A model generated the notes under the pieces. It had not been told where the DNA came from. It searched no databases and saw nothing but the letters and a program-made list of their open reading frames with translations. A stretch of 64,000 nt of DNA from Sulfuricurvum sp. (GTDB lineage: Bacteria > Campylobacterota > Campylobacteria > Campylobacterales > Sulfurimonadaceae). Positions within the stretch are counted from its first letter, which is position 1. Each line of letters opens with the position of its first letter. The stretch is from positions 1-64,000 of the forward strand of contig JAUYRN010000015.1 in assembly GCA_030696775.1 (NCBI GenBank), read 5' to 3'. Shown here in pieces: positions 17,275 through 33,915 of the stretch. Both the position numbers and the translations under genes were made by a program.

Positions 17275-18687
17275 TTAAAACTTAACTTCAGTAGTGAGCA
17301 TATAAACGTTTTTAGACTCGCCCGTATCAGAACCAGCTGCCCAAGTCGTTCCATTTTTAACCGTATATTTTTCGTCTATAAATTTTGCTGAACCGATAAA
17401 GTTCACATTTTTGTTCATTTTGTACATAACTGCAGCGATGTATTTTTCACCCTCTACACTTGTGTTCATAGCGGTACCATTTTTAGCGGTATCATCGATT
17501 TTGTAGTTATCATAACGCCCGATGATTGTCCAATCGGTAAATGGACGTACTTCGCCATTGATAGACCATAAATCATAATCGCTCTCAACCCAGCTGGTAT
17601 CAGCAACAGCTACATTGGCTTGCATATCTTGGTTGCGTGCTTTATCATTTGCTGCCACATATTGTGCGGCAATCAAGAATGCTGGCTGGTTATATACTGC
17701 GTGAAGACCATAAAAAGTACGGTCATATTCTGATTTATCTCTAGCCGTCCCCGCTTGATTCAATGCTAATTTGTCATCTTTGTGATTATTGGAAATAAGT
17801 CCCATTGTGGATACGTGCAAATAAGTATCTTTAGTCACATCATTTTTACCAACTTTTGTACCACTTCCAATCAAGTGAGCTGTGAGACGCCATTCAGCAG
17901 AGAGCGCCGAGCTGTTCTCTTGGTTAGCTGCTTCTTTGTCAGCATGGTAGCCCTCACCGTTAAAGATACCGATTTCAGAAGAGAACATCTCAGTTTTCGT
18001 TTTGAAATTAACTCCTAGGTCTGCTGAGTTAACAAGGTCAACACCAGCTTCAGTTGCTGTCCCTTTTTCTTCAAGTGCAACTTTATTGAATGAACGGTGA
18101 TACCATGAGTTGTGCTCTTCGTAGTCAATCCATGGACGGTGAGCAATACCCACTTCTACCCCAGTATACGGGAGAACTTCATCCAAATAGAGATAAGCGT
18201 ATTTGAAATATGTATTTGCATAACTTGTAGATGATGCTAGCTCTTTAGTAGTATCTAGCGTGAAACGAAAGTAGTCTTTATCGTTAATGTACGCTTTCAA
18301 TTGTAAATAAGCACGGCGTAGTTCGAAACCAGTAGAAGTGCCTAGGTATTTTGATTGATCGCCATTAGCAACAGTAACTTTTGTTTGTGGATCAGCCGAT
18401 GTTAAACCAAAATAAGAAGTACCGCTAAACTCAAGAGTTTTTGCTTTTGATTTTACGTTTACATATTTCTTTTGAGCATCTTTGTATTCAGAAAATGCTG
18501 ATTCACCTTCACGCTGATTCGCATCAATCGTCTTAGCGTCTACGAAATCACCCATAGCAACACGGCCTTCACCAGCTGTTGTAAATACTTGACCTGTTTT
18601 AGGGTCGCTATATAGAGACATAGTGTCAGCGTACGCTACACCTGACAACATCACCGCAGCAAGGGCAGATAAAGTTACTTTTTTCAT
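17275..18687 (-). CDS. outer-membrane porin, probably phosphate-selective (OprO/OprP-like)
   Basis: A 470-residue outer-membrane beta-barrel. It has a classical signal peptide (MKKVTLSALAAVMLSGVAYA). A short N-terminal linker with EYKDAQKKYV is followed by a barrel with alternating aromatic strands, ending in the TTEVKF terminal Phe typical of Omp85-assembled proteins. FELRRAYLQLKAYI... resembles the phosphate-selective porin O/P family. It lies next to pstS and has Pho-box-like sites in its promoter (18731-18765), both supporting phosphate uptake across the outer membrane. AGGAG precedes the ATG. Selectivity is inferred. Confidence 0.78.
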   Translation of the reverse strand: MKKVTLSALAAVMLSGVAYADTMSLYSDPKTGQVFTTAGEGRVAMGDFVDAKTIDANQREGESAFSEYKDAQKKYVNVKSKAKTLEFSGTSYFGLTSADPQTKVTVANGDQSKYLGTSTGFELRRAYLQLKAYINDKDYFRFTLDTTKELASSTSYANTYFKYAYLYLDEVLPYTGVEVGIAHRPWIDYEEHNSWYHRSFNKVALEEKGTATEAGVDLVNSADLGVNFKTKTEMFSSEIGIFNGEGYHADKEAANQENSSALSAEWRLTAHLIGSGTKVGKNDVTKDTYLHVSTMGLISNNHKDDKLALNQAGTARDKSEYDRTFYGLHAVYNQPAFLIAAQYVAANDKARNQDMQANVAVADTSWVESDYDLWSINGEVRPFTDWTIIGRYDNYKIDDTAKNGTAMNTSVEGEKYIAAVMYKMNKNVNFIGSAKFIDEKYTVKNGTTWAAGSDTGESKNVYMLTTEVKF

Positions 18688-18730
18688 TGGTTATCACTCC
18701 TGATTAATATGACGACATTGTAGAAAAAGA

Positions 18731-18765
18731 AAATTACGTCAGTGTTACAATTACAAAAGGGTTAC
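18731..18765 (-). promoter_or_regulatory. tandem Pho-box-like sites of the porin promoter
   Basis: On the minus strand there are two pairs of GTAAY half-sites exactly 11 bp apart: GTAAC 18765-18761 with GTAAT 18754-18750, and GTAAC 18748-18744 with GTAAT 18737-18733. The second pair ends 8 bases before a TACAAT -10 at 18722-18717. The 11-bp period is that of PhoB boxes. Confidence 0.65.
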
Positions 18766-19117: not shown

Positions 19118-20110
19118 TTATTTACCAGACCAGTACTCACGTACCATGTTTGTTGTTTCAACTGGAAGAGCGATGTAACCTAATTTTTCTGCTGCTGCAT
19201 CACCGTTACGGAATGAGTAGTCAAAGAAGTTGACAACTTCTTTGTTAACATCCGCTTTTTCACGAGGCATCAAGATAAATGTTGCTGCAACAATCGGGTA
19301 TGCACCGTCTTGCATTACAAGTGAGCTATAGAAGTGATCTTTTTTAGACCATTTTGCTTGTTTTACTGCCAATTGGAAGTTTGATTTTGTTGCTGTTACC
19401 CATTTGCCTTCAGCCGTTTGAAGTGTTGCTGCTGAAAGATTGTTCTTTTCTTTGTATGCGTTTTCGATGTAGCCGATAGAGTATGGAGTTTGTTTAATAA
19501 GATTTGTTACACCCTCATTACCTTTTCCGCCAACACCTGTTGCCCAACCGATAGCTTTACCGATACCGAATTTGCTTTTCCATGTTTTAGATGCTTCACT
19601 CAAGTAATCAGTAAATACGTATGTAGTACCTGATCCATCAGATCGGTGAGCTACGATGATTTTTTCAGCTGGGAGTTTAATACCTGCGTTATCTGCAACG
19701 ATTGCTGCGTCATTCCACATTGTGATTTTACCTGCGAAGATATCAGCTACAACACTGTTTTTAAGTTTTAGTTTTTCGTCAGCAACACCTGGAAGGTTGT
19801 GTGCAACAACGATTGAACCGATAACTGCCGGGAATTGGAACAATTTAGCTGCATCCAATTCTTTTGGTGTCATAGGAGCATCCGTAGCACCGAAGTCAAC
19901 GATACGCTCAGAGACTTGCTTGATACCGCCGCCTGAACCGATTGATTGGTAGTTAACACGAGTTTTAGTCGCTTTTTGGTAATTATACGCCCAATCATAA
20001 TAACATGGTGCTGGGAAAGTTGCACCCGCTCCATTGATTTTATCTGCTGCGATCATTGATGAAGCCGCGATTGCAGCGATCACTAAACCTTTAGTAACTT
20101 TTGTTAGCAT
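19118..20110 (-). CDS. pstS: phosphate ABC transporter substrate-binding protein PstS
   Basis: A periplasmic phosphate-binding protein of 330 residues feeding PstCAB. The signal peptide is residues 1-22 (ending SSMIAA). DKINGAGATFPAPCYYDWAYNYQKATKTRVNYQSIGSGGGI is the typical PstS start, with phosphate-contact segments GATDAPM and HRSDGSGTTYVFT. It is separated from pstCAB by phoU-phoB-phoR-cca and transcribed the other way. Two near-identical 18-bp Pho boxes lie upstream. AAGGA precedes the ATG. Confidence 0.95.
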   Translation of the reverse strand: MLTKVTKGLVIAAIAASSMIAADKINGAGATFPAPCYYDWAYNYQKATKTRVNYQSIGSGGGIKQVSERIVDFGATDAPMTPKELDAAKLFQFPAVIGSIVVAHNLPGVADEKLKLKNSVVADIFAGKITMWNDAAIVADNAGIKLPAEKIIVAHRSDGSGTTYVFTDYLSEASKTWKSKFGIGKAIGWATGVGGKGNEGVTNLIKQTPYSIGYIENAYKEKNNLSAATLQTAEGKWVTATKSNFQLAVKQAKWSKKDHFYSSLVMQDGAYPIVAATFILMPREKADVNKEVVNFFDYSFRNGDAAAEKLGYIALPVETTNMVREYWSGK

Positions 20111-20158: not shown

Positions 20159-20210
20159 GTAACCAAAAGGTTACAGAGTATGGTAAACTATTGTAATCAA
20201 ACGGTGACAG
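20159..20210. promoter_or_regulatory. two 18-bp Pho boxes between pstS and phoU
   Basis: On the minus strand CTGTCACCGTTTGATTAC (20210-20193) and CTGTAACCTTTTGGTTAC (20176-20159) are two near-identical copies. Each has half-sites 11 bp apart, as in PhoB sites. The second ends 10 bases before TACAAT (20148-20143), the likely pstS -10. Because GTNAC is palindromic the boxes read on both strands and may also serve phoU. Confidence 0.75.
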
Positions 20211-20262
20211 TAATAGATTACAATCACACACTTATTTTAATACATTAATCAAAGGCTCATCC

Positions 20263-20934
20263 ATGTTACCACGCTACGAAAACAAACTTAATGAAATCCG
20301 CACACAGCTTTCCAATCTAACGTCTGCCATCATCTGTGCCAATAAAGAAACGTTGCACGCCTTTGAAGTCAATGATGATGCGAGCTACGATAATGCCAAA
20401 CAGTGCCTTAAAAGCATTCAAACGGATGCGAACAAGATTGACAGCGAAGTCATTAAAACACTTGCTCTGTATGGTCCTGAAGCGGATGAACTTCGCCTTC
20501 TCATTGCATTTTTGAAAATGACGAATGAGTTTGACCGTATCGGTGAAAATATGAAGAAATACAATGTCCGACTTCAAGAGCTTTGCCGTGGAGAATGTGA
20601 TCTTACCGTTATGACTCCGTCTATTATCCAGCTTCAAAAAACGACCCTTAATGCACTCGGGTATATCCATGAATATTTGGAAGCGATGAGCACGTCAGAT
20701 GCGCAAGAGCTTTTCCGTAAAGTATCCGTCGAAGAATCCAAAAATGATGACCTTTTCTCTGTTATTGAAAAAGATCTTCTCAATCTTATTTCTGACTCTC
20801 ATGAACTCTCTGCGGACTACGTCAAAGTTCTTTCAACACTTCGCAAGCTGGAACGAACAGGAGATCGCACGGTCAATATTGCTTCACTTCTTTTGTACGC
20901 CCAACAAGGCGGCGAATTAAACTTTCACGCGTAA
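20263..20934 (+). CDS. phoU: phosphate signalling regulator PhoU
   Basis: A cytoplasmic helical regulator of 223 residues that links Pst activity to PhoR. The two PhoU metal-binding repeats are visible as EFDRIGENM (near residue 88) and LERTGDRTVNIA (near 200). The length matches PhoU. AAAGG precedes the ATG. It is the first gene of phoU-phoB-phoR-cca, with tight spacing throughout, and shares its upstream region with pstS. Confidence 0.9.
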   Translation: MLPRYENKLNEIRTQLSNLTSAIICANKETLHAFEVNDDASYDNAKQCLKSIQTDANKIDSEVIKTLALYGPEADELRLLIAFLKMTNEFDRIGENMKKYNVRLQELCRGECDLTVMTPSIIQLQKTTLNALGYIHEYLEAMSTSDAQELFRKVSVEESKNDDLFSVIEKDLLNLISDSHELSADYVKVLSTLRKLERTGDRTVNIASLLLYAQQGGELNFHA

Positions 20935-20946
20935 AGAGGTAGAAAG

Positions 20947-21621
20947 TTGAGTACGCTCATACTGATCGTCGAAGACGAAGAGGATATTTTAGAATTGATG
21001 GAGTTTAACCTTGGTCGCGAGGGGTTTGAAACCATGGGGTTTCTCAACACCAAACGGGTCATCGAAGTGCTCGAAGAGGAAAAAGTTGATCTGATTTTGA
21101 TGGATCGCAACCTCCCAGGAACGGAGGGATCTGAATTCGTAGCCTCTCTGAGACGCAGTGGGATTAATACTCCCGTCATTTTCATCAGCGCAAAAGACAA
21201 AGACGAACATATAGAAGAGGGATTTGAACGTGGAGGAGATGATTATCTCACGAAACCCTTTAGTATGAAAGAACTTGTTTTGCGGGTCAAAGCGATTTTA
21301 CGACGTACTCAAAAAACTTCCGTTGAGGGAAATGTAACCTACCGCGATATCACCCTCAACCTCGCATCACGTACCGTCGTCATCGAAAATACCCCCGTTG
21401 AGCTCACTAAACTTGAATTTGATTTGCTGTATGCACTTATGGGTAATCAAAATGTCGTCCTCGATCGTGAATACCTCCTCGAACACGTATGGGGAGGAGA
21501 TGAAATGTATCAAGACCGTACTGTCAACGTCGCCATCAACCGTCTTAAAGAAAAAATTGACCCCGATAAAAGTAAAGAGTACATCAAAACGGTACGGGGA
21601 GTCGGATACACACTGTGCTAA
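20947..21621 (+). CDS. phoB: PhoB-type response regulator
   Basis: An OmpR/PhoB-family response regulator of 224 residues that would bind the GTNAY-type boxes described here. Receiver domain: acidic pair EDEED near residue 10, phospho-acceptor Asp53 in LILMDRNLPG, conserved KPF near residue 104. The winged-helix C-terminus contains ELTKLEFDLLYAL and the RTVNVAINRLKEKI recognition helix. The start codon is TTG (20947) behind GAGG. It overlaps phoR by 7 bases. Confidence 0.9.
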   Translation: MSTLILIVEDEEDILELMEFNLGREGFETMGFLNTKRVIEVLEEEKVDLILMDRNLPGTEGSEFVASLRRSGINTPVIFISAKDKDEHIEEGFERGGDDYLTKPFSMKELVLRVKAILRRTQKTSVEGNVTYRDITLNLASRTVVIENTPVELTKLEFDLLYALMGNQNVVLDREYLLEHVWGGDEMYQDRTVNVAINRLKEKIDPDKSKEYIKTVRGVGYTLC

Positions 21622-23012
21622 AAATTCATCAGCTCTTTTTTTTAAACACACTTGCTCTTTTTATAGGAACCCTTACTATTGCTTCATTTGTCGGTTACTA
21701 TACCCTCAAAGAGATGATCGTGAACGACAATATCGAGCATCTAAAAAGAACCTTGGAACTGGTTGCTATCCGCTCCAATCAATCCAATAACTTGGATCAC
21801 TATGTCAATGCGGTACGCAATCAAACCAATTATCGTACCACTGCGTTTGATAACGACGGAAAGGTCTTAGCCGAAAGTAATATCGACAAACGTTCCGTTG
21901 ATTCATCGCTCAATCGCCAAGAAATAATGAATGCTTTAACAGAACCGTACGGAGTCGAAGTGCGGTATTCAGCTGCGTTTGATGAGGATTATATTTTCGT
22001 CGCCAAACAAATCGCTTTTCAAGGGGACATTATCATTCTCCGACTGGGAGTACCTCTTCACAGCGTTATGGGGTATTTTTACCAATTATGGTTCAAACTT
22101 GCCGCATCATTCGCGTTGTTTATCATTATAGCGCTCATCGCTTCCTATAAAATCTCTAAAAAAGCCCAATACGACATTGCTCAAATCACTCAATATCTCC
22201 ACGAAATTTCGGCAAAAAATTACATGGCAGTCTTAAAGCCGGAGCATTTTAGAGAATTTTTGCAAATCACCCTGCTCCTCAAAAATCTGGTCAAAAAACT
22301 TCGAAATCGTGACAAACAAAAACGCAAATATACCGCTAGGCTTCGTCTCATCAATAAACAGCAAAACGATATTCTCTCCGCCATCAGCCACGAGTTCAAA
22401 AACCCTGTCGCTGCCATCGTCGGATACACTGAAACACTCGAAGAAGATCCCAATCTAAACCTCGCCATACGGGAGAAATTTTTGGGCAAAATTCATTCTA
22501 ATGCTCTTAAAATCAGCACCATGCTCGACCGTCTCGCCCTCTCGGTTAAACTCGAGAATAACGATCTTTCCATCAAGCCCATTTCGTTTGATCTCGATGC
22601 GTTATGCCGTGATGTCACGTCAACGCTTCAGGGGAAATATCCCAAACGTACTATTATTTACGAGGGCAGTACCAAAACAGTGTTTGCCGATAAAACGATG
22701 CTGGATCTCGTCATTACCAACCTCATCGACAATGCCATTAAATATTCCGAAGATACGGTTATGCTTCGACTCACGGATCACACGATTGACGTCACAGATA
22801 AAGGGATCGGAATCGCACCGCATGAGCTGGAACTTATCTCAAGCAAGTTTTACCGTGTTCAAAAAAACAGTTGGGACAACTCCATGGGATTGGGACTTGC
22901 TATCGTTAGCTATATTCTCAAACTTCATGACACAACACTTCGGATTGAAAGCACCTTGGGCGTTGGCTCAACATTTAGTTTTGGACTTGACACCCTCGTC
23001 CCAAAAAAATGA
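21615..23012 (+). CDS. phoR: PhoR-type sensor histidine kinase
   Basis: A membrane histidine kinase of 465 residues partnering PhoB. A first TM helix (residues ~7-30) and a second (~160-182) enclose a ~130-residue periplasmic domain. The DHp H-box is ILSAISHEFKNPVAAIVG (His near 259). The N box NLIDNAIKYS, DKGIGIAPHE and GLGLAIV follow. Unlike E. coli PhoR it has a sizeable periplasmic domain. The start is a GTG inside the end of phoB. It shares an ATGA overlap with cca. Confidence 0.85.
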   Translation: MLKIHQLFFLNTLALFIGTLTIASFVGYYTLKEMIVNDNIEHLKRTLELVAIRSNQSNNLDHYVNAVRNQTNYRTTAFDNDGKVLAESNIDKRSVDSSLNRQEIMNALTEPYGVEVRYSAAFDEDYIFVAKQIAFQGDIIILRLGVPLHSVMGYFYQLWFKLAASFALFIIIALIASYKISKKAQYDIAQITQYLHEISAKNYMAVLKPEHFREFLQITLLLKNLVKKLRNRDKQKRKYTARLRLINKQQNDILSAISHEFKNPVAAIVGYTETLEEDPNLNLAIREKFLGKIHSNALKISTMLDRLALSVKLENNDLSIKPISFDLDALCRDVTSTLQGKYPKRTIIYEGSTKTVFADKTMLDLVITNLIDNAIKYSEDTVMLRLTDHTIDVTDKGIGIAPHELELISSKFYRVQKNSWDNSMGLGLAIVSYILKLHDTTLRIESTLGVGSTFSFGLDTLVPKK

Positions 23013-24394
23013 TTTCGCTCCCCTCTGAACTTCATCCGATTCTCGAGCAGCTAAACGCTCATCATATCACGCCCATTGTTGTGGGGGGATATGTGCGCGA
23101 TGCGCTGCTCAATCTTCATTCTAAAGATATCGATATTGAGCTCTACAATCTACCCTCCCTCGAAGTACTAGAGCAGATACTTAAACCATTTGGCAAACTC
23201 AATCTCGTAGGTAAAAGCTTCGGCGTCATCAAACTGCGGATTAAAGAACTGGAAATCGATTTTTCTCCTCCACGTACTGAGTCCAAACATACAGCAGGGC
23301 ACAAAGGATTTGAAATGTCCTTCGATCATGCTCTGGACTTTCCAACGGCTTCACGCAGACGTGATTTCACAATCAATGCAATAGGCTATAACCCACTCAC
23401 CAAAACATTATTGGATCCTTACGGCGGTTGTGACGATTTGTCAGCTAAACGGCTTATGTGTGTGGATGAGGAAACCTTTATTGAAGATCCTCTTCGCCCT
23501 TTACGAGCCGTTCAGTTTGCCGCCCGTTTTGACCTAAACTGTGATCCTGTACTTCTTACTCTGTGTAAAGAGATGATTTTAAACGGTGCGCTTGCAGAGT
23601 TACCCAAAGAGCGAATCTTTGAGGAATTTAAAAAACTCTTCTTGCTAAGCCCCAAGCCCTCTGTCGGAATGGAACTGCTACGCGAGATAGGCGCTCTTCC
23701 TTTTTTCTCACCATTGGATTTGTTTGAACATACGCCCCAAGACAGGCTATCTCATCCCGAGGGAAACGTATGGACTCACACACTTATGGCGTTAGACGTG
23801 ATGGCAACGTTACGGACAGGCGATGCTAAACGTGACCTAACACGGATGTTTGCCGTGTTATTGCACGACTGCGCCAAACCTATAACGACGGTTATCACTA
23901 ACGAAGAAATCAATGCCCCTAAACATGCCAAAGCAGGGGTGGCAGTTGCAAAAGTGTTTTTAGAAAAAATCACCGATGAGCACGCATTGAAAGAAGACGT
24001 TTTACCTCTCATCCGTTATCATGGAAAGGTACGAAAACTCTATGAAAACAACGCATCTATCCCTGATATTCTCCATCTAAGCACACGGGTTACTATCGAA
24101 GAGTTGATTCTGGTATCGGAGGCTGATTTTCTGGGAAGGGAGTTTGGTGGTGGTCGCCCTAAGTGCTTTACTGCAGGACAATGGCTTTATTCTCAGGCTA
24201 AAGAACTGGGTGTTCTCAGCTCCCCGCCCAAACCGCTGCTCATGGGTCGGGACTTGATTGCCTTTGGACTTACTCCATCAAAAGCGTTTAAAGTGATTTT
24301 AGAAAATGCTTATGAAGCACAGCTCAATCAGCAATTTTTCACAGAGGAAGAAGCCCTAGAATGGCTAAAAGACTACCTAGTAACAGCTTTGTAA
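23009..24394 (+). CDS. cca: CCA tRNA nucleotidyltransferase (HD domain type)
   Basis: A class II nucleotidyltransferase of 461 residues, adding or repairing tRNA 3'-CCA. GGYVRDALLN and the DIDIELYNL metal-binding aspartates begin the head. RRRDFTINAIGYNP and DPLRPLRAVQFAARF form the neck. A C-terminal HD domain (LLHDCAKP, near residue 290) is present. It overlaps phoR by four bases (ATGA), so it is co-transcribed with the Pho regulators, an unusual partner. Its last codons contain the promoter half-sites of pstC. Confidence 0.88.
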   Translation: MISLPSELHPILEQLNAHHITPIVVGGYVRDALLNLHSKDIDIELYNLPSLEVLEQILKPFGKLNLVGKSFGVIKLRIKELEIDFSPPRTESKHTAGHKGFEMSFDHALDFPTASRRRDFTINAIGYNPLTKTLLDPYGGCDDLSAKRLMCVDEETFIEDPLRPLRAVQFAARFDLNCDPVLLTLCKEMILNGALAELPKERIFEEFKKLFLLSPKPSVGMELLREIGALPFFSPLDLFEHTPQDRLSHPEGNVWTHTLMALDVMATLRTGDAKRDLTRMFAVLLHDCAKPITTVITNEEINAPKHAKAGVAVAKVFLEKITDEHALKEDVLPLIRYHGKVRKLYENNASIPDILHLSTRVTIEELILVSEADFLGREFGGGRPKCFTAGQWLYSQAKELGVLSSPPKPLLMGRDLIAFGLTPSKAFKVILENAYEAQLNQQFFTEEEALEWLKDYLVTAL

Positions 24395-24412
24395 TACAAA
24401 GTATATTACAAT
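24380..24412 (+). promoter_or_regulatory. Pho-box-like promoter of pstCAB, inside the cca 3' end
   Basis: GTAAC (24380) and GTAAT (24391) are 11 bp apart, overlapping the end of cca. They are followed nine bases later by TACAAT (24407-24412), the same -10 as at pstS and the porin. Transcription would start about 20 bases before the pstC ATG. Confidence 0.6.
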
Positions 24413-24440: not shown

Positions 24441-25289
24441 ATGATCGATAAGATATTTTTTAACTTCACTCGCTTTAGCGCCCTCTTAATCCTCGTTATC
24501 GTAGCGTGGATTTTTGTGGTTTTATTCAATCAGTCGATTGAAGCCATGAATACCTTTGGTCTTGATTTCATCACCAAAGACGAATGGGCACCAAATCTCG
24601 ATAAATTTGGAGCGTATGCCGCGATCTTTGGTTCGGTTGCTTCCACTTTTCTAGCAATGCTTCTCGCAATTCCTGTTGCTATTGGGGTTGCAATCTTTTT
24701 GAGCGAAATTGCTCATGATAAGATCAAAGGCTTTTTCGGCGTAAGCGTTGAGCTTCTTGCCGCCATCCCTTCTGTTATTTACGGGATGTGGGGACTGTTT
24801 TATTTTGTTCCGATTCTTCGTGATATTTTTGGCGGAATGGGTATCGGATTACTTGCAGCCGGAATCGTTTTGGCAATTATGATTTTGCCGTTTATGGCAG
24901 CCGTTACCCGCGATGCGATGAACACTACTCCTGATATTCTCAAAGAATCCGCTTACGCACTAGGCGGAACACAATGGGACGTTATCAAAGACGTTATTAT
25001 CCCTTATGCAAAAGCAGGGATTATCGGCTCGCTCATCTTGGCTCTTGGACGAGCGATTGGTGAGACGATGGCGGTTACGTTTGTAATGGGGAATGTCCAC
25101 CATGTCCCAGGATCTATTCTTGACCCTACAACCTCTATTCCGGTTACCTTGGCCAACGAGTTTACCGAAGCAGACAGTTCACTTTATTTTTCCAGTCTTT
25201 TTGGTTTGGCACTGACGTTGCTCATTATGAGTTTCGTTGTTATCGCTATTGCAAAATTCTACTTTTTACGTAAAGCGAGGAGAGCATAA
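24441..25289 (+). CDS. pstC: phosphate ABC transporter permease PstC
   Basis: An inner-membrane permease of 282 residues with six hydrophobic segments and the binding-protein-dependent transport loop (ALGGTQWDVIKDVIIPYAKAG, about residues 173-193). PstC-type features include the GETMAV stretch at about residue 210. Its stop overlaps the pstA start (TAATG), so the two are coupled. GGAAGG lies before the ATG. Confidence 0.93.
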   Translation: MIDKIFFNFTRFSALLILVIVAWIFVVLFNQSIEAMNTFGLDFITKDEWAPNLDKFGAYAAIFGSVASTFLAMLLAIPVAIGVAIFLSEIAHDKIKGFFGVSVELLAAIPSVIYGMWGLFYFVPILRDIFGGMGIGLLAAGIVLAIMILPFMAAVTRDAMNTTPDILKESAYALGGTQWDVIKDVIIPYAKAGIIGSLILALGRAIGETMAVTFVMGNVHHVPGSILDPTTSIPVTLANEFTEADSSLYFSSLFGLALTLLIMSFVVIAIAKFYFLRKARRA

Positions 25290-26131
25290 TGACCGCCGTA
25301 CAAAAACGAATTTTGATCAACCGTATTGCCCTGGTTTTTTCAACCCTTAGTGCCATCATTGCATTAGGCTTTTTGTTTTGGATTTTAGGTATTTTAGTGA
25401 TGAAAGGGATGAGTGCCCTGAACTGGAATATCTTTATCTATGAAGGTGCTCCTCCGGGATATGAAGACAGCGGTCTCAAGCATGCGCTAACGGGTCAACT
25501 CATCTTAGTCGGTTTGGCAACTTCTGTTGGTGTACCATTGGGAATTTTGGCAGGAACGTATTTGAGTGAATATGGCAAGAACTCGAAACTCGCACATGCT
25601 ATCCGTGATATCAGCGACATTATGATGTCAGCACCCAGTATCGTTATCGGAGCATTTGTTTATGCGATTATCGTTATGCCAATGGGACACTTTAGCGCAT
25701 GGGCAGGAGCTATAGCGTTAGCGATCATCATGATACCGATCATCTTACGCACCACCGATGATATGCTTCAGCTCGTCCCTGGAACACTTCGAGAAGCAGC
25801 ATTTGCACTGGGCGCTCCGAAGTATAAAGTGATTTTGAGCGTCGTATACCGTGGAGCAAAAGCAGGTATTTTAACGGGGGTTTTATTAGGAATTGCTCGT
25901 GTAGCTGGAGAGACAGCCCCTCTGCTCTTTACTTCGTTTAACGACAATTTTTTCACGACCGATTTAAACGCAGCAATGCCCTCTCTTACGGTTACCATGT
26001 TTAATTATGCGACCAGTCCTTATGAGGATTGGCAGCAACTGGGATGGGCAGCGGCTTTCATCCTTTCTATGTTCATTTTAGGTCTCAACGTACTGGGACG
26101 ACTTATTTTATTAGCGGGAAAAGGGAAATAA
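25289..26131 (+). CDS. pstA: phosphate ABC transporter permease PstA
   Basis: The second Pst permease, 280 residues with six transmembrane helices. The EAA loop is visible as AAFALGAPKYKVILSVVYRGAKAGI. Two residue runs typical of PstA, MILRTTDDMLQLVP-like and RVAGETAPLLFTSF, are present. With PstC it forms the inner-membrane channel that receives phosphate from PstS. It is followed three bases later by pstB. Confidence 0.93.
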   Translation: MTAVQKRILINRIALVFSTLSAIIALGFLFWILGILVMKGMSALNWNIFIYEGAPPGYEDSGLKHALTGQLILVGLATSVGVPLGILAGTYLSEYGKNSKLAHAIRDISDIMMSAPSIVIGAFVYAIIVMPMGHFSAWAGAIALAIIMIPIILRTTDDMLQLVPGTLREAAFALGAPKYKVILSVVYRGAKAGILTGVLLGIARVAGETAPLLFTSFNDNFFTTDLNAAMPSLTVTMFNYATSPYEDWQQLGWAAAFILSMFILGLNVLGRLILLAGKGK

Positions 26132-26134
26132 CTC

Positions 26135-26920
26135 ATGGCAAGTATTATCGATATTAAAGAAGAATGCGCACTGCAAGTTCGTGATTTTGAATTCACCTAT
26201 AAAGGTGCTACGTCACCGAGCTTAAAAAAAGTAAGTATGCCGATTGCAAAGCATTCTATTACTGCCCTTATCGGACCTTCTGGATGTGGTAAAACAACTC
26301 TTTTACGTGCATTCAATCGTATGCATGATTTGTATCCTGGTAACACGTATGCAGGGGAAATCGAGTTTGAGGGGCGCAATATTTTGACCCCAAAAGAAGA
26401 TTTGATTCACTTGCGTACTAAAATCGGGATGATTTTTCAAAAACCAACCGCATTTCCTATGTCTATTTTTGATAACGTTGCCTATGGTATGCGTCTTCAA
26501 GGGATTAAAAACAAAACAGAACTAAACGACCGTGTAGAAAAAGCACTCAAAGATGCTGCCATCTGGAAAGAAGTCAGCGATCGTCTTAAACATGATGCTA
26601 ACGGTCTCTCAGGAGGTCAGCAACAGCGTCTGTGTATCGCTCGCGCTATCGCAGTAGAGCCTGATGTATTGCTTTTCGACGAGCCGACCTCAGCACTTGA
26701 CCCTATCTCAACGCAGGGAATCGAAAAGCTCGTAATCGAGCTTAAAGAACGTGTTAGTATCATCATAGTCACGCACAACATGCAACAAGCGGCACGTGTA
26801 AGTGATTACACCGGATTTATGTATCTGGGTGAACTCATCGAGTTGGGTCAAACTGAAGAACTGTTTGTCACGCCGAAAGAAAAGCTCACACAGGAATATA
26901 TCACTGGGAAGTTTGGGTGA
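26135..26920 (+). CDS. pstB: phosphate ABC transporter ATP-binding protein PstB
   Basis: The ATPase of the Pst importer, 261 residues, normal length. The Walker A motif is [17 protein letters not shown] (near residue 48). The ABC signature [14 protein letters not shown] and Walker [12 protein letters not shown], followed by the H-loop [14 protein letters not shown], are all intact. It ends the pstCAB operon; a structured repeat of family 2 follows directly. Confidence 0.96.
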
Positions 26921-27044: not shown

Positions 27045-27812
27045 ATGAATCTCCTTTCTCTCTATTTACCTCGACCTTTAAACCTCCAAAATATTGAATA
27101 TTCTCTGGATTTATCGCTCAATCGCGGGGTAGAAAACGGTTATTATGGTCACAATCAAAAATATCATGTTGTTCTTTCACCTTTTGGAGTATTAACTCTC
27201 ATTAGCAATCACAAACAAGACATTTTAGAAGCGTTAAAACTGCTAAACCTCTCTTTGGATGAAAAAGATCTGATTACCCAAGACTATCCCATCATCATCA
27301 ATCCCAGTATGGTAAAAACGTTCGACGTGAGCAATGAAGCCATAACCCTGCGAGAAACATCCCCGCTTACTCTCAACATCATTTCCCTTGCCATCTCTCA
27401 AAGCGTAGGATTAGAACACTATGAAAAGCGTCTTGATATCCTCTTTATTAAAAGCCGGCGCATCGTCGAATCCATCCATACTTTTTCGATTTCAAGACGT
27501 TCTCATCTAATGCAGTTTGCCGCGCAGCTGGCTCTGACTCGTCATGATATGGTAAGTAATCTTTTATTATTGGACAAACCCAATATTTTATGGGACGAAA
27601 CGGAGGCAGAATCCCTCTACAATCGTCTCTCTTTTGTATTGGAGCTCGATGATCGACACGAAATAGCCCTCTCCAAGCTTTCACAAATAAAAGAAGACGT
27701 GATGCTCGTAATGGATATTATCAATCATAAAAAAAGTGAGTTCTTGGAGTGGATAATTATCGTATTGATTATGGTTGAAATCGTGATGGGTCTCACTGAG
27801 TTTTTACGATAA
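27045..27812 (+). CDS. RMD1/DUF155 family protein
   Basis: A 255-residue protein of the RMD1 (DUF155) family, known from yeast mitochondria and many bacteria but without a settled biochemical function. The C-terminal part LDKPNILWDETEAESLYNRLSFVLELDDRHEIALSKLSQI followed by a strongly hydrophobic LEWIIIVLIMVEIVMG tail helix is diagnostic. The protein is therefore likely tail-anchored in the inner membrane. It sits between pstB and a Pho-box gene, but has no Pho box of its own that I can find. It is convergent with the next gene, two bases away. Confidence 0.75.
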   Translation: MNLLSLYLPRPLNLQNIEYSLDLSLNRGVENGYYGHNQKYHVVLSPFGVLTLISNHKQDILEALKLLNLSLDEKDLITQDYPIIINPSMVKTFDVSNEAITLRETSPLTLNIISLAISQSVGLEHYEKRLDILFIKSRRIVESIHTFSISRRSHLMQFAAQLALTRHDMVSNLLLLDKPNILWDETEAESLYNRLSFVLELDDRHEIALSKLSQIKEDVMLVMDIINHKKSEFLEWIIIVLIMVEIVMGLTEFLR

Positions 27813-27814
27813 AA

Positions 27815-28531
27815 CTACAGTTTTGGAAGAAGCTGTAGTTCCGTTTTAATAGCATAACCCTTTTCTTGCAGACGATAGATTCGTTCACTTCCCGTTTTAT
27901 TATAGATAGATGCTACGGTTTTAAAATAGTTATTATGATTGTCGATGTAAGTAAAAAGAGGCTGTTCAATAGACCCGTCAAGATAGAGTTCAGTAATCAT
28001 TAATTTCATTTTCGACATAACATCATGATAATTTTGTTCGGTTAACCCTGAGGGTTCTTTGATATAATCCAATCGAGCTTTATTGAGATTCGTATTGATA
28101 GTTTTAAGCTCATACAAACCAATTTGATTCAAAGAAAGAGCAAACGCTTTTTCATTGTCATGTTCAAAATTACGGTACATACCGAGTTTTTTCAAATACG
28201 GAACCGCCGCTTTCGTCACATCCATACTGTCGCGTCTGTACTGAACAATCATTTCCTTTGTCGTCTCTACTAAAAGTCCGCTTTCCTTGTATTTTGTAAG
28301 ACTGGAATCGAGTTTATCCAATGAGTCTTTAAGCTCCAAGAGCGATGTTTCATCTCCATAACGAACCACTTGACGCAACGAATGCTCACTAAGTGCAAAA
28401 AATTCCTGCGGGTACTTAGCAACCGGAACTGCAGTAGCAGTGCTTACATGAGATTCTTGAACACTCATCCAAAACATACCCGTAGCCGCCAGTAAACCAA
28501 CAGGAAGTAAAAAAAGTAATTTTTTCATCAT
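27815..28531 (-). CDS. secreted helical protein with Pho-box promoter, function unknown
   Basis: A protein of ~238 residues with an N-terminal signal sequence (MMKKLLFLLPVGLLAATGMFW) and an otherwise soluble, mostly alpha-helical chain rich in Lys, Leu and Tyr. I recognise no domain; it may be a periplasmic helix-bundle sensor or ligand-binding protein. The start is taken as the ATG at 28531 (or 28528) because AGGA lies just before. An upstream ATG at 28558 falls on the promoter -10. It is divergent from the EAL-CBS-GGDEF gene, sharing a Pho-box-rich space. Confidence 0.65.
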   Translation of the reverse strand: MMKKLLFLLPVGLLAATGMFWMSVQESHVSTATAVPVAKYPQEFFALSEHSLRQVVRYGDETSLLELKDSLDKLDSSLTKYKESGLLVETTKEMIVQYRRDSMDVTKAAVPYLKKLGMYRNFEHDNEKAFALSLNQIGLYELKTINTNLNKARLDYIKEPSGLTEQNYHDVMSKMKLMITELYLDGSIEQPLFTYIDNHNNYFKTVASIYNKTGSERIYRLQEKGYAIKTELQLLPKL

Positions 28532-28557
28532 GTATCCTAAAAGTGATTTTGGATGCA

Positions 28558-28589
28558 ACTATAGAGAAAAGTGATTACGACAAAATTAC
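28558..28589 (-). promoter_or_regulatory. Pho-box-like promoter of the secreted helical gene
   Basis: On the minus strand GTAAT (28589-28585) and GTAAT (28578-28574) are 11 bp apart. After 8 further bases TATAGT (28563-28558) forms a -10. This is the same geometry as at the porin and pstS. It excludes the upstream ATG at 28558 as a start. Confidence 0.6.
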
Positions 28590-28615
28590 ACGCGTCCTCT
28601 CCATACCACTTCTTT

Positions 28616-28647
28616 GTAACCTCTAGGTGACATTTGAGTTTTATACT
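28616..28647 (+). promoter_or_regulatory. Pho-box-like promoter of the EAL-CBS-GGDEF gene
   Basis: GTAAC (28616) and GTGAC (28627) are 11 bp apart. The box ends 8 bases before TATACT (28642-28647). With this -10 the transcript would begin almost exactly at the ATG at 28655, so the mRNA could be leaderless. Confidence 0.6.
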
Positions 28648-28654
28648 CCTACGC

Positions 28655-30412
28655 ATGGAACCTTTGCACCCCTTTTATCTACGTTATCTTGATGTTTTAG
28701 ATGTGGCATTCCAGCCAATTGTTGATATTCACTCCGGTGAATTATTTGGGGTAGAAGCTCTCTTACGCGGGACAGACTCGCTTGGCTTCGAAACGATTGA
28801 ATCTTTTTTTGACCGTTTATTTGAAGAAAATATCTTATATACATTCGACCTTGCCCTTCGTGAAAAAGTGATCAAGAAATTTTGCACCATTGACTTTCAC
28901 CCCCAAATCAAACTTTTTTACAATCTCGATAATCGTCTTTTGGGGATGGCTGATTTCACAAAAGGAAACACTTCTCGATTGCTGAAACGGTATAGATTGG
29001 ATCATAAAAGTATTGTATTTGAACTTTCAGAGCACAATGAAATAGGAAATCTGGATCATTTTATAGCGCTCATGAGCCATTATCGTCACGAAGGTTTTTC
29101 TGTTGCGATTGATGATTTTGGAATCGGTCAGTCCGGATACAAAATGCTTTACCACACCACGCCCAATATTATTAAAATCGATCGATTTTTTCTAAGTGAT
29201 GTCGACAGCGATCCAAAGAAAAAGCTTCTAGCCCGTCAGATGGTTCAGCTTTCAACATTGATGGGATGCCGTGTGATTGCTGAGGGGATCGAAACAGCAG
29301 CCGAACTTTTAGTCTGTAAGGAAATAGGATGCCATATGATACAGGGATATTTTATCCAGCGGCCTACTATGGATTGCGAGGAACTATTCCTCAAATATAC
29401 ACATATTACCCTTCTCTCTTTGGATGAAAAGCGAATATCTGGAGATCAAGCCATCATTCGAAAACGATTGGAAGTTTTAAAAGCAGTTACGATTAGCGAC
29501 TCTATGGAAGCATTATTAGGAGAATTCAGTAGCGATCATGAACTTTTTCTCATCCCCATCATCGATAATCAAGGTGCTCCGCTGGGAATAATCCACGAGC
29601 ATCGCCTTAAATCAATCATCTACTCCCCTTTTGGCCAATCACTAATCCAAAACAGCTCCTCAAATTTTTCAATATTAGAGACATATTTAGAAATCATCCC
29701 CATTGTCAATGTAGCAATGCCCTTAGAGACCATTGTCGAACTTTTTTCCCTGCACAAAAATGCACCAGGTGTATTGGTAATGGAATCCTCCAAATACATT
29801 GGTTATTTAAGTGCAAGGGTATTGATTGAAGCGGTGCATGAACGCAATCTGATCCGCGCCCGCGATCAAAATCCTCTCAGCCGGCTTCCGGGAAATTTTA
29901 TGATTAACGAACATATTGCTCACGCATTTGATTCAAACGTTCCGAGTGTATTTTGTTATTTTGATTTTGATCACTTTAAACCCTATAACGACCACTATGG
30001 TTTTCGCAATGGCGATCGCGTGATTGTTCTATTCGCCGAATTAATGCACAAAATTTTCTTAAATGAATGCTTTGTCGGCCATATTGGCGGGGATGATTTT
30101 TTTGCTGGCACTGTCATCAAAAATGAATTGATGTTTGAAAGATTTTGTACACAAACGCGAGACCTAATTCATCAATTTAGTGCCGATGTTCGTGAATTTT
30201 ACAGCTCTGAAGATCGTGAGAGAGGGTGCATAATTGCTGAAGACAGAGAAGGGAACAATAGAGAGTTTGAACTGCTGACCGTCAGTGCCGTTCTCGTATA
30301 CAAAGGAAATACTTCATCGATTCATTCAGCAGAACAGCTTCAAAGAATTTTTGCACTAGAAAAGAAAAATGCTAAAAAAAATCCTGATCACCTTTGCATC
30401 ATAATTGATTAA
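28655..30412 (+). CDS. EAL-CBS-GGDEF cyclic-di-GMP domain protein
   Basis: A cytoplasmic protein of 585 residues. The N-terminal EAL domain keeps the catalytic set: EALLRG, FELSE, IDDFGIGQS, IKIDRFF, AEGIET and GYFIQ, so it could hydrolyse c-di-GMP. Two CBS-like motifs occupy about residues 270-400. A C-terminal GGDEF domain has CYFDFDHFKPYNDHYG but the signature reads GGDDF, so it may sense GTP or c-di-GMP rather than synthesise it. The ATG at 28655 fits the promoter. A TTG start at 28634 behind AGGTGA is an alternative. Confidence 0.8.
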   Translation: MEPLHPFYLRYLDVLDVAFQPIVDIHSGELFGVEALLRGTDSLGFETIESFFDRLFEENILYTFDLALREKVIKKFCTIDFHPQIKLFYNLDNRLLGMADFTKGNTSRLLKRYRLDHKSIVFELSEHNEIGNLDHFIALMSHYRHEGFSVAIDDFGIGQSGYKMLYHTTPNIIKIDRFFLSDVDSDPKKKLLARQMVQLSTLMGCRVIAEGIETAAELLVCKEIGCHMIQGYFIQRPTMDCEELFLKYTHITLLSLDEKRISGDQAIIRKRLEVLKAVTISDSMEALLGEFSSDHELFLIPIIDNQGAPLGIIHEHRLKSIIYSPFGQSLIQNSSSNFSILETYLEIIPIVNVAMPLETIVELFSLHKNAPGVLVMESSKYIGYLSARVLIEAVHERNLIRARDQNPLSRLPGNFMINEHIAHAFDSNVPSVFCYFDFDHFKPYNDHYGFRNGDRVIVLFAELMHKIFLNECFVGHIGGDDFFAGTVIKNELMFERFCTQTRDLIHQFSADVREFYSSEDRERGCIIAEDREGNNREFELLTVSAVLVYKGNTSSIHSAEQLQRIFALEKKNAKKNPDHLCIIID

Positions 30413-30454: not shown

Positions 30455-30489
30455 GTAATAATTTCGTAATGGTTTCGTAATCTTATATT
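30455..30489 (+). promoter_or_regulatory. triple Pho-box-like repeat of the pit promoter
   Basis: GTAAT occurs at 30455, 30466 and 30477, each 11 bp apart with TTTC linkers. TATATT at 30484-30489 is 11 bases after the second half-site and is the candidate -10; the ATG is at 30509. Confidence 0.6.
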
Positions 30490-30508: not shown

Positions 30509-31993
30509 ATGTCTGTAATTTGGGATGCACTGAACAATATCAACACTCTCGCCCTTGGTTTATTACTTCTATCGTTAGGGATTGCTCTCTTTTATGAAAT
30601 GATTAACGGTTTTCACGACACCGCAAATTCTGTTGCTATGATCATTTATACTAACTCGATGAAAGCAGAATATTCTGTCATCATGGCGGGTATTATGAAC
30701 TTTTTAGGTGTTATCTTAGGTGGCATAGGAGTTGCCTATGTCATCGTCCACTTGTTACCGCTGGATATTATGGTCGCATCCAATCAAAATGCGACGCTCG
30801 TGATGATTTATTCCCTCTTGATTTCTGCCGTTATCTGGAATTTTGGGACATGGTATTTCGGTTTACCGGTTTCCAGTTCCCATTCGCTTATCGGTTCGCT
30901 TATCGGAGTCAGTACCGTATTTGGTGTTATGCACGGTTTTGAATTTTCACAAAGCGTCAATTGGAAAGCCTTATACGGCGTATTAACCGCATTGGCTCTT
31001 TCTCCTCTTTTGGGGTTTGGTTTTGCCTATTTACTCATGAAAACCACAAGAAAGTTTGTTAATAATCCAAAATATTTTAAAACTCCTGATAGTGAGTCAA
31101 AAAGAAAGCGCCCGAATTTCTGGATGCGTATCGGAATTATTGTAACGGGGGCAGGCGTTAGCTTTGCACACGGTTCGAATGACGGGCAAAAAGGGATCGG
31201 TATTATCATGATTATCCTAATCGGGATACTGCCAACGTATTATGCGCTCAACATGGATTCGCATCAGTACAAAATCAAGCAAATTCATGACAGTGCCGAA
31301 AATTTAGCAAAATTTTATGCGGAAAATAACGAAAGTCTCAACAAGCTTGTAAGTGAAAAACACTTGATTAGCGCGCTTAAAACAAAAAATACGATTGCAG
31401 AATGTAACGTTAACGATGTATACGTTACAACGTCATTGATTGCTACCAAACTGAGTGGTCTTAAATCGTATACAGAACTTTCATCACAGGATCGTTGGAG
31501 TGTTCACACTGCTATTTTATGCTCAGATAACTTTTTTGGTCAAGTCGAAAAAACCTATTTAATATCTGATAAAGATAAATCTGATTACGTGTCCGCCCAA
31601 CGAAAAACCTTGGTATCAGCGACCGAATATGTTCCTACTTGGGTGATTATCGCTGTTGCCCTTGCGCTGAGTATCGGAACGATGATAGGGTACAAGCGAA
31701 TTGTTATCACTATTGGTGAAAAAATTGGTTCTCAGCCGATTAATTACATGCAAGCTACTGTGGCACAAGCAATGGCGATGATGACAATTCTATTAGCCAA
31801 CTTTGCCCATGCCCCCGTCAGCACAACGCATATCGTCTCCAGTTCCGTTGCCGGATCGATGGTCGCAGAACCTGAAGGCGGCGTGCAAAAAAGTATGGTA
31901 AAAACTATTTTACTCTCATGGCTTTTCACCTTACCAGTAACTGCATTGCTTAGTTCAGCGATTTATTACTGCCTCAGTTTTATCGCGAAATAA
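30509..31993 (+). CDS. PiT family inorganic phosphate transporter
   Basis: A low-affinity phosphate permease of 494 residues with ten or so hydrophobic helices in two halves. Both PiT signature repeats are visible: GFHDTANSVAMIIYT near residue 35 and VSFAHGSNDGQKGIG near 218. The long hydrophilic middle loop (residues ~250-375) is larger than in E. coli PitA. Its promoter carries three 11-bp-spaced Pho-like half-sites. Pit is not usually a Pho gene, so the control is unusual. Confidence 0.88.
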   Translation: MSVIWDALNNINTLALGLLLLSLGIALFYEMINGFHDTANSVAMIIYTNSMKAEYSVIMAGIMNFLGVILGGIGVAYVIVHLLPLDIMVASNQNATLVMIYSLLISAVIWNFGTWYFGLPVSSSHSLIGSLIGVSTVFGVMHGFEFSQSVNWKALYGVLTALALSPLLGFGFAYLLMKTTRKFVNNPKYFKTPDSESKRKRPNFWMRIGIIVTGAGVSFAHGSNDGQKGIGIIMIILIGILPTYYALNMDSHQYKIKQIHDSAENLAKFYAENNESLNKLVSEKHLISALKTKNTIAECNVNDVYVTTSLIATKLSGLKSYTELSSQDRWSVHTAILCSDNFFGQVEKTYLISDKDKSDYVSAQRKTLVSATEYVPTWVIIAVALALSIGTMIGYKRIVITIGEKIGSQPINYMQATVAQAMAMMTILLANFAHAPVSTTHIVSSSVAGSMVAEPEGGVQKSMVKTILLSWLFTLPVTALLSSAIYYCLSFIAK

Positions 31994-32447: not shown

Positions 32448-32530
32448 AAACGCTATCGGAATTAAATCTCGATTAGCTACGCTAACGCTAAGCAATGTCC
32501 TCAGAGGGAAGTTCTCGCACATTTGTGTTC
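32448..32530 (+). repeat. family-1 intergenic repeat, copy C (overlaps the end of a gene)
   Basis: Hairpin GCTATCG...CGATTAGC, linker TACGCTAACGCTA, a weak second stem, and GCACA-TTT-GTGTT. The element extends over the last ~14 codons and the TAG stop of the degenerate GGDEF/EAL gene, so it supplies that protein's C-terminal tail. Confidence 0.7.
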
Positions 32531-33915
32531 ATTATTACAATTTTACCGTGATAATTACCTTGGCGGCAGTTGATTTTCAATCTTTTAGCAATATCCTCGC
32601 TTTGAGCATCTTCTATCATACTCATCAATGTTACCGCACCACATAAATGAGCCGTAATATTAAGTCCTTGAAGTATATTTTGATATTTTTCTTCCATAAT
32701 ATGCCGCGTATACAGAATATCAAAGTGAAGAAAATCTACATCAAATTCTTTTAAATACATCATAGTAACGTGATTTCCACCATATTTATCCAAGGCTATT
32801 TTATATCCTACTGCACGATATTGAGTAATCTGTTCTCGAAACCGTTTTATCTGTGGAGAATATTCTTTTTCTTCAAATAAAAGTATAATTTTGTTTTTAG
32901 CTTTTGGATATTGTTGCAAAACACCAAGTGCATGTTGAAAAAATAACCCGTTACGCAATGTGACTGCTGAAATTGATACAACATAAACAACTGATGAATT
33001 TTCTGCCATTTTTGCCACTATTTCTAAAAGCTGGCTCTCATATTCACGCATTTTTCCTAAACGATTTAAAAGAGGAATAAATCGGCTTTGGTGAATAAAT
33101 CTACCTTCTTTATCAATCAGCTTAAACGTTACCTCATACATTGTATTTTTTTCACAACTAATTATTTGCGTTGCAACTGAATATCGTTGATATGTCAAAG
33201 CATCTAAAACCGATTGTTCCAGCTCAGCAGGGATTATATCGTCGTCATCGGTAACCGTATGCTTATCAGCCGAAGCATATTCAAGTTCAAATAGACGGGT
33301 TAATATTTCATTGAACTGTTTTACATGTGTAGTATCAAGCAAAACTGCCGAAAGACGAATTTCTATCTCATTTAGATTATTTTCCTGATATTTAGCCAAA
33401 AAAAGTTCAATCAGTGGAATTATATGCTCTTTTTCACCCATAAATAATACAATAAAATTTCCTCCCTTATAACGACAAACAGGAAGTTTTTTTATCTCTT
33501 TGGAAATAAAAAATTCATTAATTTGCCGTACCGTTTCTATCAAAATGGCATTCCCATTTTTAATACCATATTTTTCATTGATCGCTGTTAGGTTATCAAC
33601 ATTGATCATTACGAGAGTGACTGTATGGTGACTACTTCGCTGATAAAAAAGTTTTGTAAAATATTCGACACTAAAGGTATGGGTTATGGAATCAGTAATT
33701 GCTTCGTAGGCACTTTGATTAATTAAAAAGAAAATGAAATAAACGGCAATGGCTAGCAACATAAAAATTAGAAAAATAATGGAAGTAAAGGTAACTAAAG
33801 GTTGTAAAAAAAGAATAAAAACAGAAACAACACTGAGTAAGAAGATAGGCAATCCCATCCGCAGTGCTAAAACAAAGCGATGAGAACGTTCTATTTCTTC
33901 AGTATAAAAAGACAC
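32488..33915 (-). CDS. membrane protein with degenerate GGDEF and EAL domains
   Basis: A 475-residue protein with two N-terminal TM helices (residues ~15-65). A GGDEF fold with MINVDNLTAINEKYG follows, but its active-site loop reads YKGGNFIVLF instead of GGDEF. The C-terminal EAL-like fold shows EVTFKL instead of EAL, with other catalytic residues missing. It therefore probably binds rather than makes or cleaves c-di-GMP, if it binds it at all. It starts three bases before the gyrB stop and may be co-transcribed with gyrB. Its last ~14 codons come from repeat copy C. Confidence 0.7.
   Translation of the reverse strand: MSFYTEEIERSHRFVLALRMGLPIFLLSVVSVFILFLQPLVTFTSIIFLIFMLLAIAVYFIFFLINQSAYEAITDSITHTFSVEYFTKLFYQRSSHHTVTLVMINVDNLTAINEKYGIKNGNAILIETVRQINEFFISKEIKKLPVCRYKGGNFIVLFMGEKEHIIPLIELFLAKYQENNLNEIEIRLSAVLLDTTHVKQFNEILTRLFELEYASADKHTVTDDDDIIPAELEQSVLDALTYQRYSVATQIISCEKNTMYEVTFKLIDKEGRFIHQSRFIPLLNRLGKMREYESQLLEIVAKMAENSSVVYVVSISAVTLRNGLFFQHALGVLQQYPKAKNKIILLFEEKEYSPQIKRFREQITQYRAVGYKIALDKYGGNHVTMMYLKEFDVDFLHFDILYTRHIMEEKYQNILQGLNITAHLCGAVTLMSMIEDAQSEDIAKRLKINCRQGNYHGKIVIMNTNVRELPSEDIA

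Follow-up and report, generated by a model that had tools for sequence, protein, structure and literature searches.

Divergent Pho-box genes in Sulfuricurvum predicted to encode a RapA-type c-di-GMP phosphodiesterase and a periplasmic helical-bundle protein

The phosphate gene cluster in a chromosome segment of Sulfuricurvum, a sulfur-oxidising bacterium, houses a divergent gene pair, one member encoding an EAL-CBS-GGDEF protein and the other a 238-residue protein, termed SP here, which belongs to a Pho-regulon protein family without described function. Conservation of the promoters makes Pho control of both genes well supported, and we infer that the EAL-CBS-GGDEF protein is a c-di-GMP phosphodiesterase of the RapA/PA3258 type, not a novel type. 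The overall proposal, i.e. a Pho-controlled RapA-type phosphodiesterase with a Lap output and a stand-alone SP bundle acting in parallel, appears probable to us from sequence comparison and structure modelling. A direct link between the SP and EAL proteins is not supported; we read them as members of one regulon, not as obligate partners.

The window, i.e. the whole 64,000-nucleotide stretch that was analysed, carries the cluster in the order porin-like gene, pstS, phoU, phoB, phoR, a CCA-transferase-like gene, pstC, pstA, pstB and DUF155, continuing with SP, EAL-CBS-GGDEF, PiT, a QueF-like gene, a second GGDEF-EAL gene, gyrB, dnaN and dnaA. Genes for which no family match is cited bear names that we presume from their sequence, and PstA is presumed from its position and ABC-permease sequence. 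The main features are:

17275..18687, minus strand: porin-like protein (the name is a guess), 470 residues, exported; Pho box at 18748..18717
19118..20110, minus strand: PstS-like phosphate-binding protein (Pfam PBP_like_2)
20263..23012, plus strand: phoU, phoB-type regulator and phoR-type kinase; Pho-type box at 20193-20224
24441..26920, plus strand: pstC, pstA and pstB (Pfam/ORF); Pho-type box at 24380-24412
27045..27812, plus strand: DUF155 (RMND1/Sif2) protein, between pstB and SP (Pfam)
27815..28531, minus strand: SP, 238 residues, N-terminal hydrophobic segment, predicted all-helical (ORF with ATG at 28531; AlphaFold2 model)
28563..28558, minus strand: -10 element of SP, TATAGT, 10 nt from the box
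28589..28574, minus strand: Pho box of SP, GTAATTTTGTCGTAAT (pattern scan and PWM; box and -10 kept in 18/18 Sulfuricurvum SP genes)
28616..28631, plus strand: Pho box of the EAL gene, GTAACCTCTAGGTGAC (pattern scan and PWM; 28/29 Sulfuricurvum upstreams at p<=0.05)
28642..28647, plus strand: -10 element of the EAL gene, TATACT, 10 nt from the box
28655..30412, plus strand: EAL-CBS-CBS-GGDEF protein, 585 residues (ORF with ATG at 28655; Pfam)
30455..30481, plus strand: triple-repeat Pho box of the PiT gene (motif scan)
30509..31993, plus strand: PiT/PHO4 phosphate transporter (Pfam PHO4, 2.7e-81)

A Pfam search gave no match for the porin-like protein; its gene adjoins pstS and is preceded by a strong Pho box. 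The DUF155 gene is missing at the corresponding place in one relative (G004). The second c-di-GMP gene (32488-33915, GGDEF then EAL) lies just past PiT and QueF and adjoins gyrB.

The 123 bp separating SP from the EAL gene contain two opposed Pho boxes of the form GTRAY-N6-GTRAY, each with its -10 element, bearing out the two opposed Pho-type promoters proposed in the first-pass annotation, which had given the gap as 120 bases. Its 8-base spacing from box to -10 holds when the box is taken to consist of two 11-bp repeats, which was probably the way of counting used; from the last GTRAY the spacing is 10 nt at both promoters. The full pattern occurs 15 times in the 2.55-Mb genome, compared with 8 times for the reversed pattern. 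Six of these matches fall in the window, preceding the porin-like gene, phoU, pstC, SP, the EAL gene and a further gene, and a different contig has another two flanking phoX; this clustering, with a divergent pair at a classical Pho gene, supports GTRAY-N6-GTRAY as the local Pho box. The pair at phoX (G000:C14:197903-197972; L176) serves a PhoX-type lipoprotein alkaline phosphatase gene on one side and a HAMP histidine kinase gene on the other, with a response regulator gene adjoining. A Pho-like box that may be due to chance precedes one of two adjacent sulfide-quinone-reductase-like genes (G000:C32:35767-35798; L102). A hand-made consensus, TTTCGTAATNN, was dropped from the motif scan, having missed the EAL box and given many false top matches.

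With a PWM whose training set was limited to classical Pho genes, superseding one partly trained on SP sites, 17/18 SP and 28/29 EAL upstreams from Sulfuricurvum scored at p<=0.05, the p-value for a single promoter being modest (about 0.02). The combination of a box with a -10 at a 10-nt gap was present in 18/18 SP upstreams versus 18/601 control upstreams; about 11 of those 18 positive controls look like pstS heading pst operons, three being Pfam-confirmed as PstS-like and about eight more being pstS-like by equal length and equal position before the EAL gene. When the gap was picked from 8-12 nt by the best TATAAT match, with ties going to 10, it was 10 for all 18 SP, all 29 EAL and 9/10 distant SP upstreams. 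In relatives, both genes are preceded by this box at this spacing, even where they no longer adjoin, and it is this recurrence that makes the case for Pho control strong. The suggested Pho-type co-control of the pair thus gains support from the conserved boxes, the pst/pho neighbourhood and the PhoX positive control.

The domain order of the enzyme is EAL-CBS-CBS-GGDEF (Pfam EAL 5e-46, GGDEF 9e-10), the two CBS stretches scoring just under the Pfam cut-off (23.6 vs 24). Almost all of the 74 homologues, and the window protein, keep the residues of the EAL domain for metal and substrate binding; GGDDF is found in 74/74, and the DxDxFK..ND..GF residues are nearly invariant. Of the 87 genera of Campylobacterales sampled, 33 have the protein. 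Among 44 fetched EAL loci from outside Sulfuricurvum, about 25, by a hand count leaving out weak OmpR-type matches, have a clear pst or phoBR gene within about 7 kb, and the loci beside pst/pho genes span at least five families (f1, f2, f5, f9 and f10). In most f9 genomes the EAL gene is second in an operon PstS-EAL-PstC-PstA-PstB-PhoU-PhoB-PhoR with the box before pstS, while in one genome (G058) it has its own box and adjoins a PPK2 polyphosphate kinase gene (L084 8206-9090). Phosphate two-component control is known in the same order from PhosS/PhosR of Campylobacter jejuni, a likeness at the level of the two-component control.

A plasmid search returned full-length EAL-CBS-GGDEF homologues in Pseudomonadota; an Arcobacter cloacae plasmid protein was set aside, its alignment showing no GGDDF or CBS part. 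The window protein matches Pseudomonas aeruginosa WP_003091594.1 over its full length (29.3% over 96%, E 1e-66). The gene for the latter is flanked by those for a carboxy-terminal-processing (prc-like) protease and an FKBP isomerase, which we take to be the PA3257-PA3262 region, and WP_003091594.1 is taken as PA3258 because of these neighbours. It too has GGDDF, and a Pho box of three CTGTCAT-like repeats (GCGTCATAAAACAGTCATGGGACTGTCGT) lies upstream of its gene. PA3258 has been named as the RapA orthologue (PMC9394441; PMC12900916); it works as a phosphodiesterase when expressed, with residual cyclase activity reported once the phosphodiesterase is disabled (PMC12900916). RapA of P. fluorescens Pf0-1 is a Pho-controlled phosphodiesterase that lowers c-di-GMP, thereby freeing LapG through LapD so that LapA is released and phosphate-starved cells detach from surfaces (PMC3032545).

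The Sulfuricurvum system thus resembles that of RapA/PA3258 in its EAL-CBS-GGDEF architecture (as stated for PA3258), its Pho-box control, the full-length homology (29%) and GGDDF, the sequence compared being PA3258 by the above identification, and in the presence of LapD and LapG in the genome. By contrast with RapA, the Campylobacterales gene adjoins or sits inside pst/pho operons, the box is of the GTAAY type, not the CTGTCAT type, and a divergent SP gene occurs in one Sulfuricurvum clade. The first-pass annotation knew of no described system of this kind; this stands for the exact pair only, the RapA system being an already described case of a Pho-controlled EAL-CBS-GGDEF phosphodiesterase (PMC3032545, PMC12900916).

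On contig C2 of the Sulfuricurvum genome, genes for LapG, LapD and a large RTX/cadherin-like adhesin adjoin one another, the last being cut off by the end of the contig; the NCBIfam matches (LapG 3.9e-51, LapD 5e-97) score under the equivalog cut-offs. The EAL motif of LapD is degenerate, and a Cys-His-Asp set, presumably catalytic as in the LapG family, is readable in LapG. Because of this locus, a circuit of RapA, LapD, LapG and adhesin release is probably present in the genome; as in the LapD-LapG-LapA system, the three genes lie together, with a presumed tie to the EAL enzyme. A search of 41 genomes detected LapG in 15; a Lap output is therefore not universal and other outputs must exist elsewhere. 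Co-occurrence of SP and LapG was not convincing (8/12 SP genomes vs 4/13 others; hand count in the first 25 Sulfuricurvum genomes).

SP is present in 18 of 37 Sulfuricurvum genomes, including the source genome, and the EAL-CBS-GGDEF protein in 33. All 18 SP-bearing genomes also have the EAL gene and in 10 of them the two adjoin; elsewhere SP lies mostly beside pyrF, or beside PiT (G004), with its box kept. In two genomes a second PhoU-domain protein is encoded near pyrF-linked SP (L051 12038-12766 and L081 9349-10077). Distant homologues from two further genera of Sulfurimonadaceae (g23 and g27) lie beside thyX-like or other genes, again mostly with the box. SP occurs without an EAL-CBS-GGDEF match (E<=1e-70) in four g27 genomes (G226, G303, G326 and G415), and many genomes have the EAL-CBS-GGDEF protein without SP. 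Every adjacent case falls in a 12-member clade (support 100/99) of a tree in which adjacency was gained once and lost twice. Conservation as neighbours, a check proposed in the first-pass annotation, extends to 10 of the 18 SP-bearing Sulfuricurvum genomes, as a derived state of a single clade; the idea of linked partners is not supported by these distributions.

No relative of SP emerged from sequence searches of Pfam, NCBIfam and PDB; the HBM/PilJ/TorS Pfam models gave no match to the window protein (E<=10) and were absent from the 25 families listed across 18 members. The family was seen only in Sulfurimonadaceae, relatives matched by the SP profile carrying Sulfuricurvum or Campylobacterales MAG titles. 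In the alignment of 18 Sulfuricurvum homologues, close relatives differ mainly at third positions; over 28 homologues, 16 positions are at least 93% conserved and a motif ELYLDxxIExPLxxY is present in most. The 238 residues contain a single, N-terminal hydrophobic segment, which ends with AxA-like sites in several g23/g27 homologues; for this reason the family is most likely periplasmic, SP itself being most likely periplasmic or N-terminally anchored.

The AlphaFold2 model of SP, built from a 10-row alignment of the window protein and those from related loci, with the distant homologues left out, is all-helical (pLDDT 85.7; first 34 residues of low confidence), in moderately certain agreement with the helix bundle anticipated for a sensor. 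Sensor domains of McpS, TorS, PilJ and McpZ lead the structural matches (Z 10-13, nearly whole chain), with PhoU ranked below them at Z about 8.9; for the two stacked helical bundles of this class, the Z of 12-13 with McpS/TorS is close to what bundles attain by chance, and the fold match (Z 12-13, TM about 0.41, Foldseek E 1.8e-3) may reflect no more than a common arrangement. Assignment to an HBM/TorS/PilJ-like sensor-bundle class is likely, not proven, since helical bundles often reach comparable Z values. SP probably shares with these domains a predicted elongated helical bundle over the whole mature chain; by contrast it stands alone, lacking a C-terminal transmembrane helix, HAMP and output domain, at about 10% identity.

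How SP acts may be viewed in several ways. It might form one signalling unit with the EAL-CBS-GGDEF protein, sensing a periplasmic cue and directly controlling the enzyme, as could be argued from the divergent pairing with matched promoters in 10/18 SP-bearing Sulfuricurvum, the EAL gene carried by 18/18, and the sensor-like fold. However, the cytoplasmic part of SP amounts to a few residues at most and the enzyme has no membrane segment, so that a link would require a third protein, in the membrane; SP without enzyme in the four g27 genomes, enzyme without SP in many, and the single gain and double loss of adjacency likewise argue against a unit, which we regard as improbable. A tangible possibility, if short of an even one, is that SP is a Pho-induced envelope protein, e.g. 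a periplasmic one that binds a phosphate compound or a metal or that has a structural role, the pairing reflecting shared regulation only. The absence of an output domain and the classical cleavable-type signal peptides of the g23/g27 homologues are in keeping with this, as is the fact that helical-bundle matches can be generic, PhoU being among them; the rank of McpS, TorS, PilJ and McpZ above PhoU, over nearly the whole chain, is not. It may also be, as a speculative reading that we think unlikely, that SP is a free-standing sensor domain of the periplasm, induced by phosphate starvation and docking onto a membrane receptor such as LapD, PhoR or a chemoreceptor; if true, one regulon would bring two signals, from the periplasm and from c-di-GMP, to the detachment decision.

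With respect to the enzyme, full conservation of the GGDEF domain and the residual cyclase activity of phosphodiesterase-disabled PA3258 (PMC12900916) could mean that it is mainly a diguanylate cyclase, or a CBS-gated bifunctional switch, that raises c-di-GMP under starvation. We give this little weight, since GGDDF differs from GGD/EEF, the window protein shows no RxxD inhibitory site, conservation extends to the EAL residues and the characterised RapA lowers c-di-GMP (PMC3032545). That the boxes are due to chance, the two genes not being phosphate-regulated, seems hardly credible: about 8 pattern matches per genome are indeed expected by chance, but the boxes are kept over 18 SP and 29 EAL promoters, including those of relocated genes and of other genera.

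In the favoured proposal of parallel Pho-controlled outputs, low phosphate would cause PhoR/PhoB, encoded 6-8 kb away, to turn on SP and the EAL gene from the mirror-image promoters, as suggested by the conserved boxes. The cytoplasmic EAL-CBS-GGDEF protein, with its homology and intact catalytic residues, would then lower c-di-GMP, whereupon LapG would be freed, the adhesin cut and starving cells would leave the surface. As a best guess, the periplasmic binding partner of SP under phosphate starvation may be a ligand or a membrane receptor, SP acting in parallel to, and not through, the phosphodiesterase.

As judged from sequence, the enzyme half is of the already known RapA type and its genomic setting is new, and the analysis brings to light a Pho-controlled, most likely periplasmic, protein family. 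The results suggest that phosphate-starvation-linked breakdown of c-di-GMP is not confined to Pseudomonas. In several Campylobacterales families the gene for a predicted RapA-type enzyme forms part of the phosphate uptake operon; thus, control of attachment by phosphate may be ancient and widespread there.
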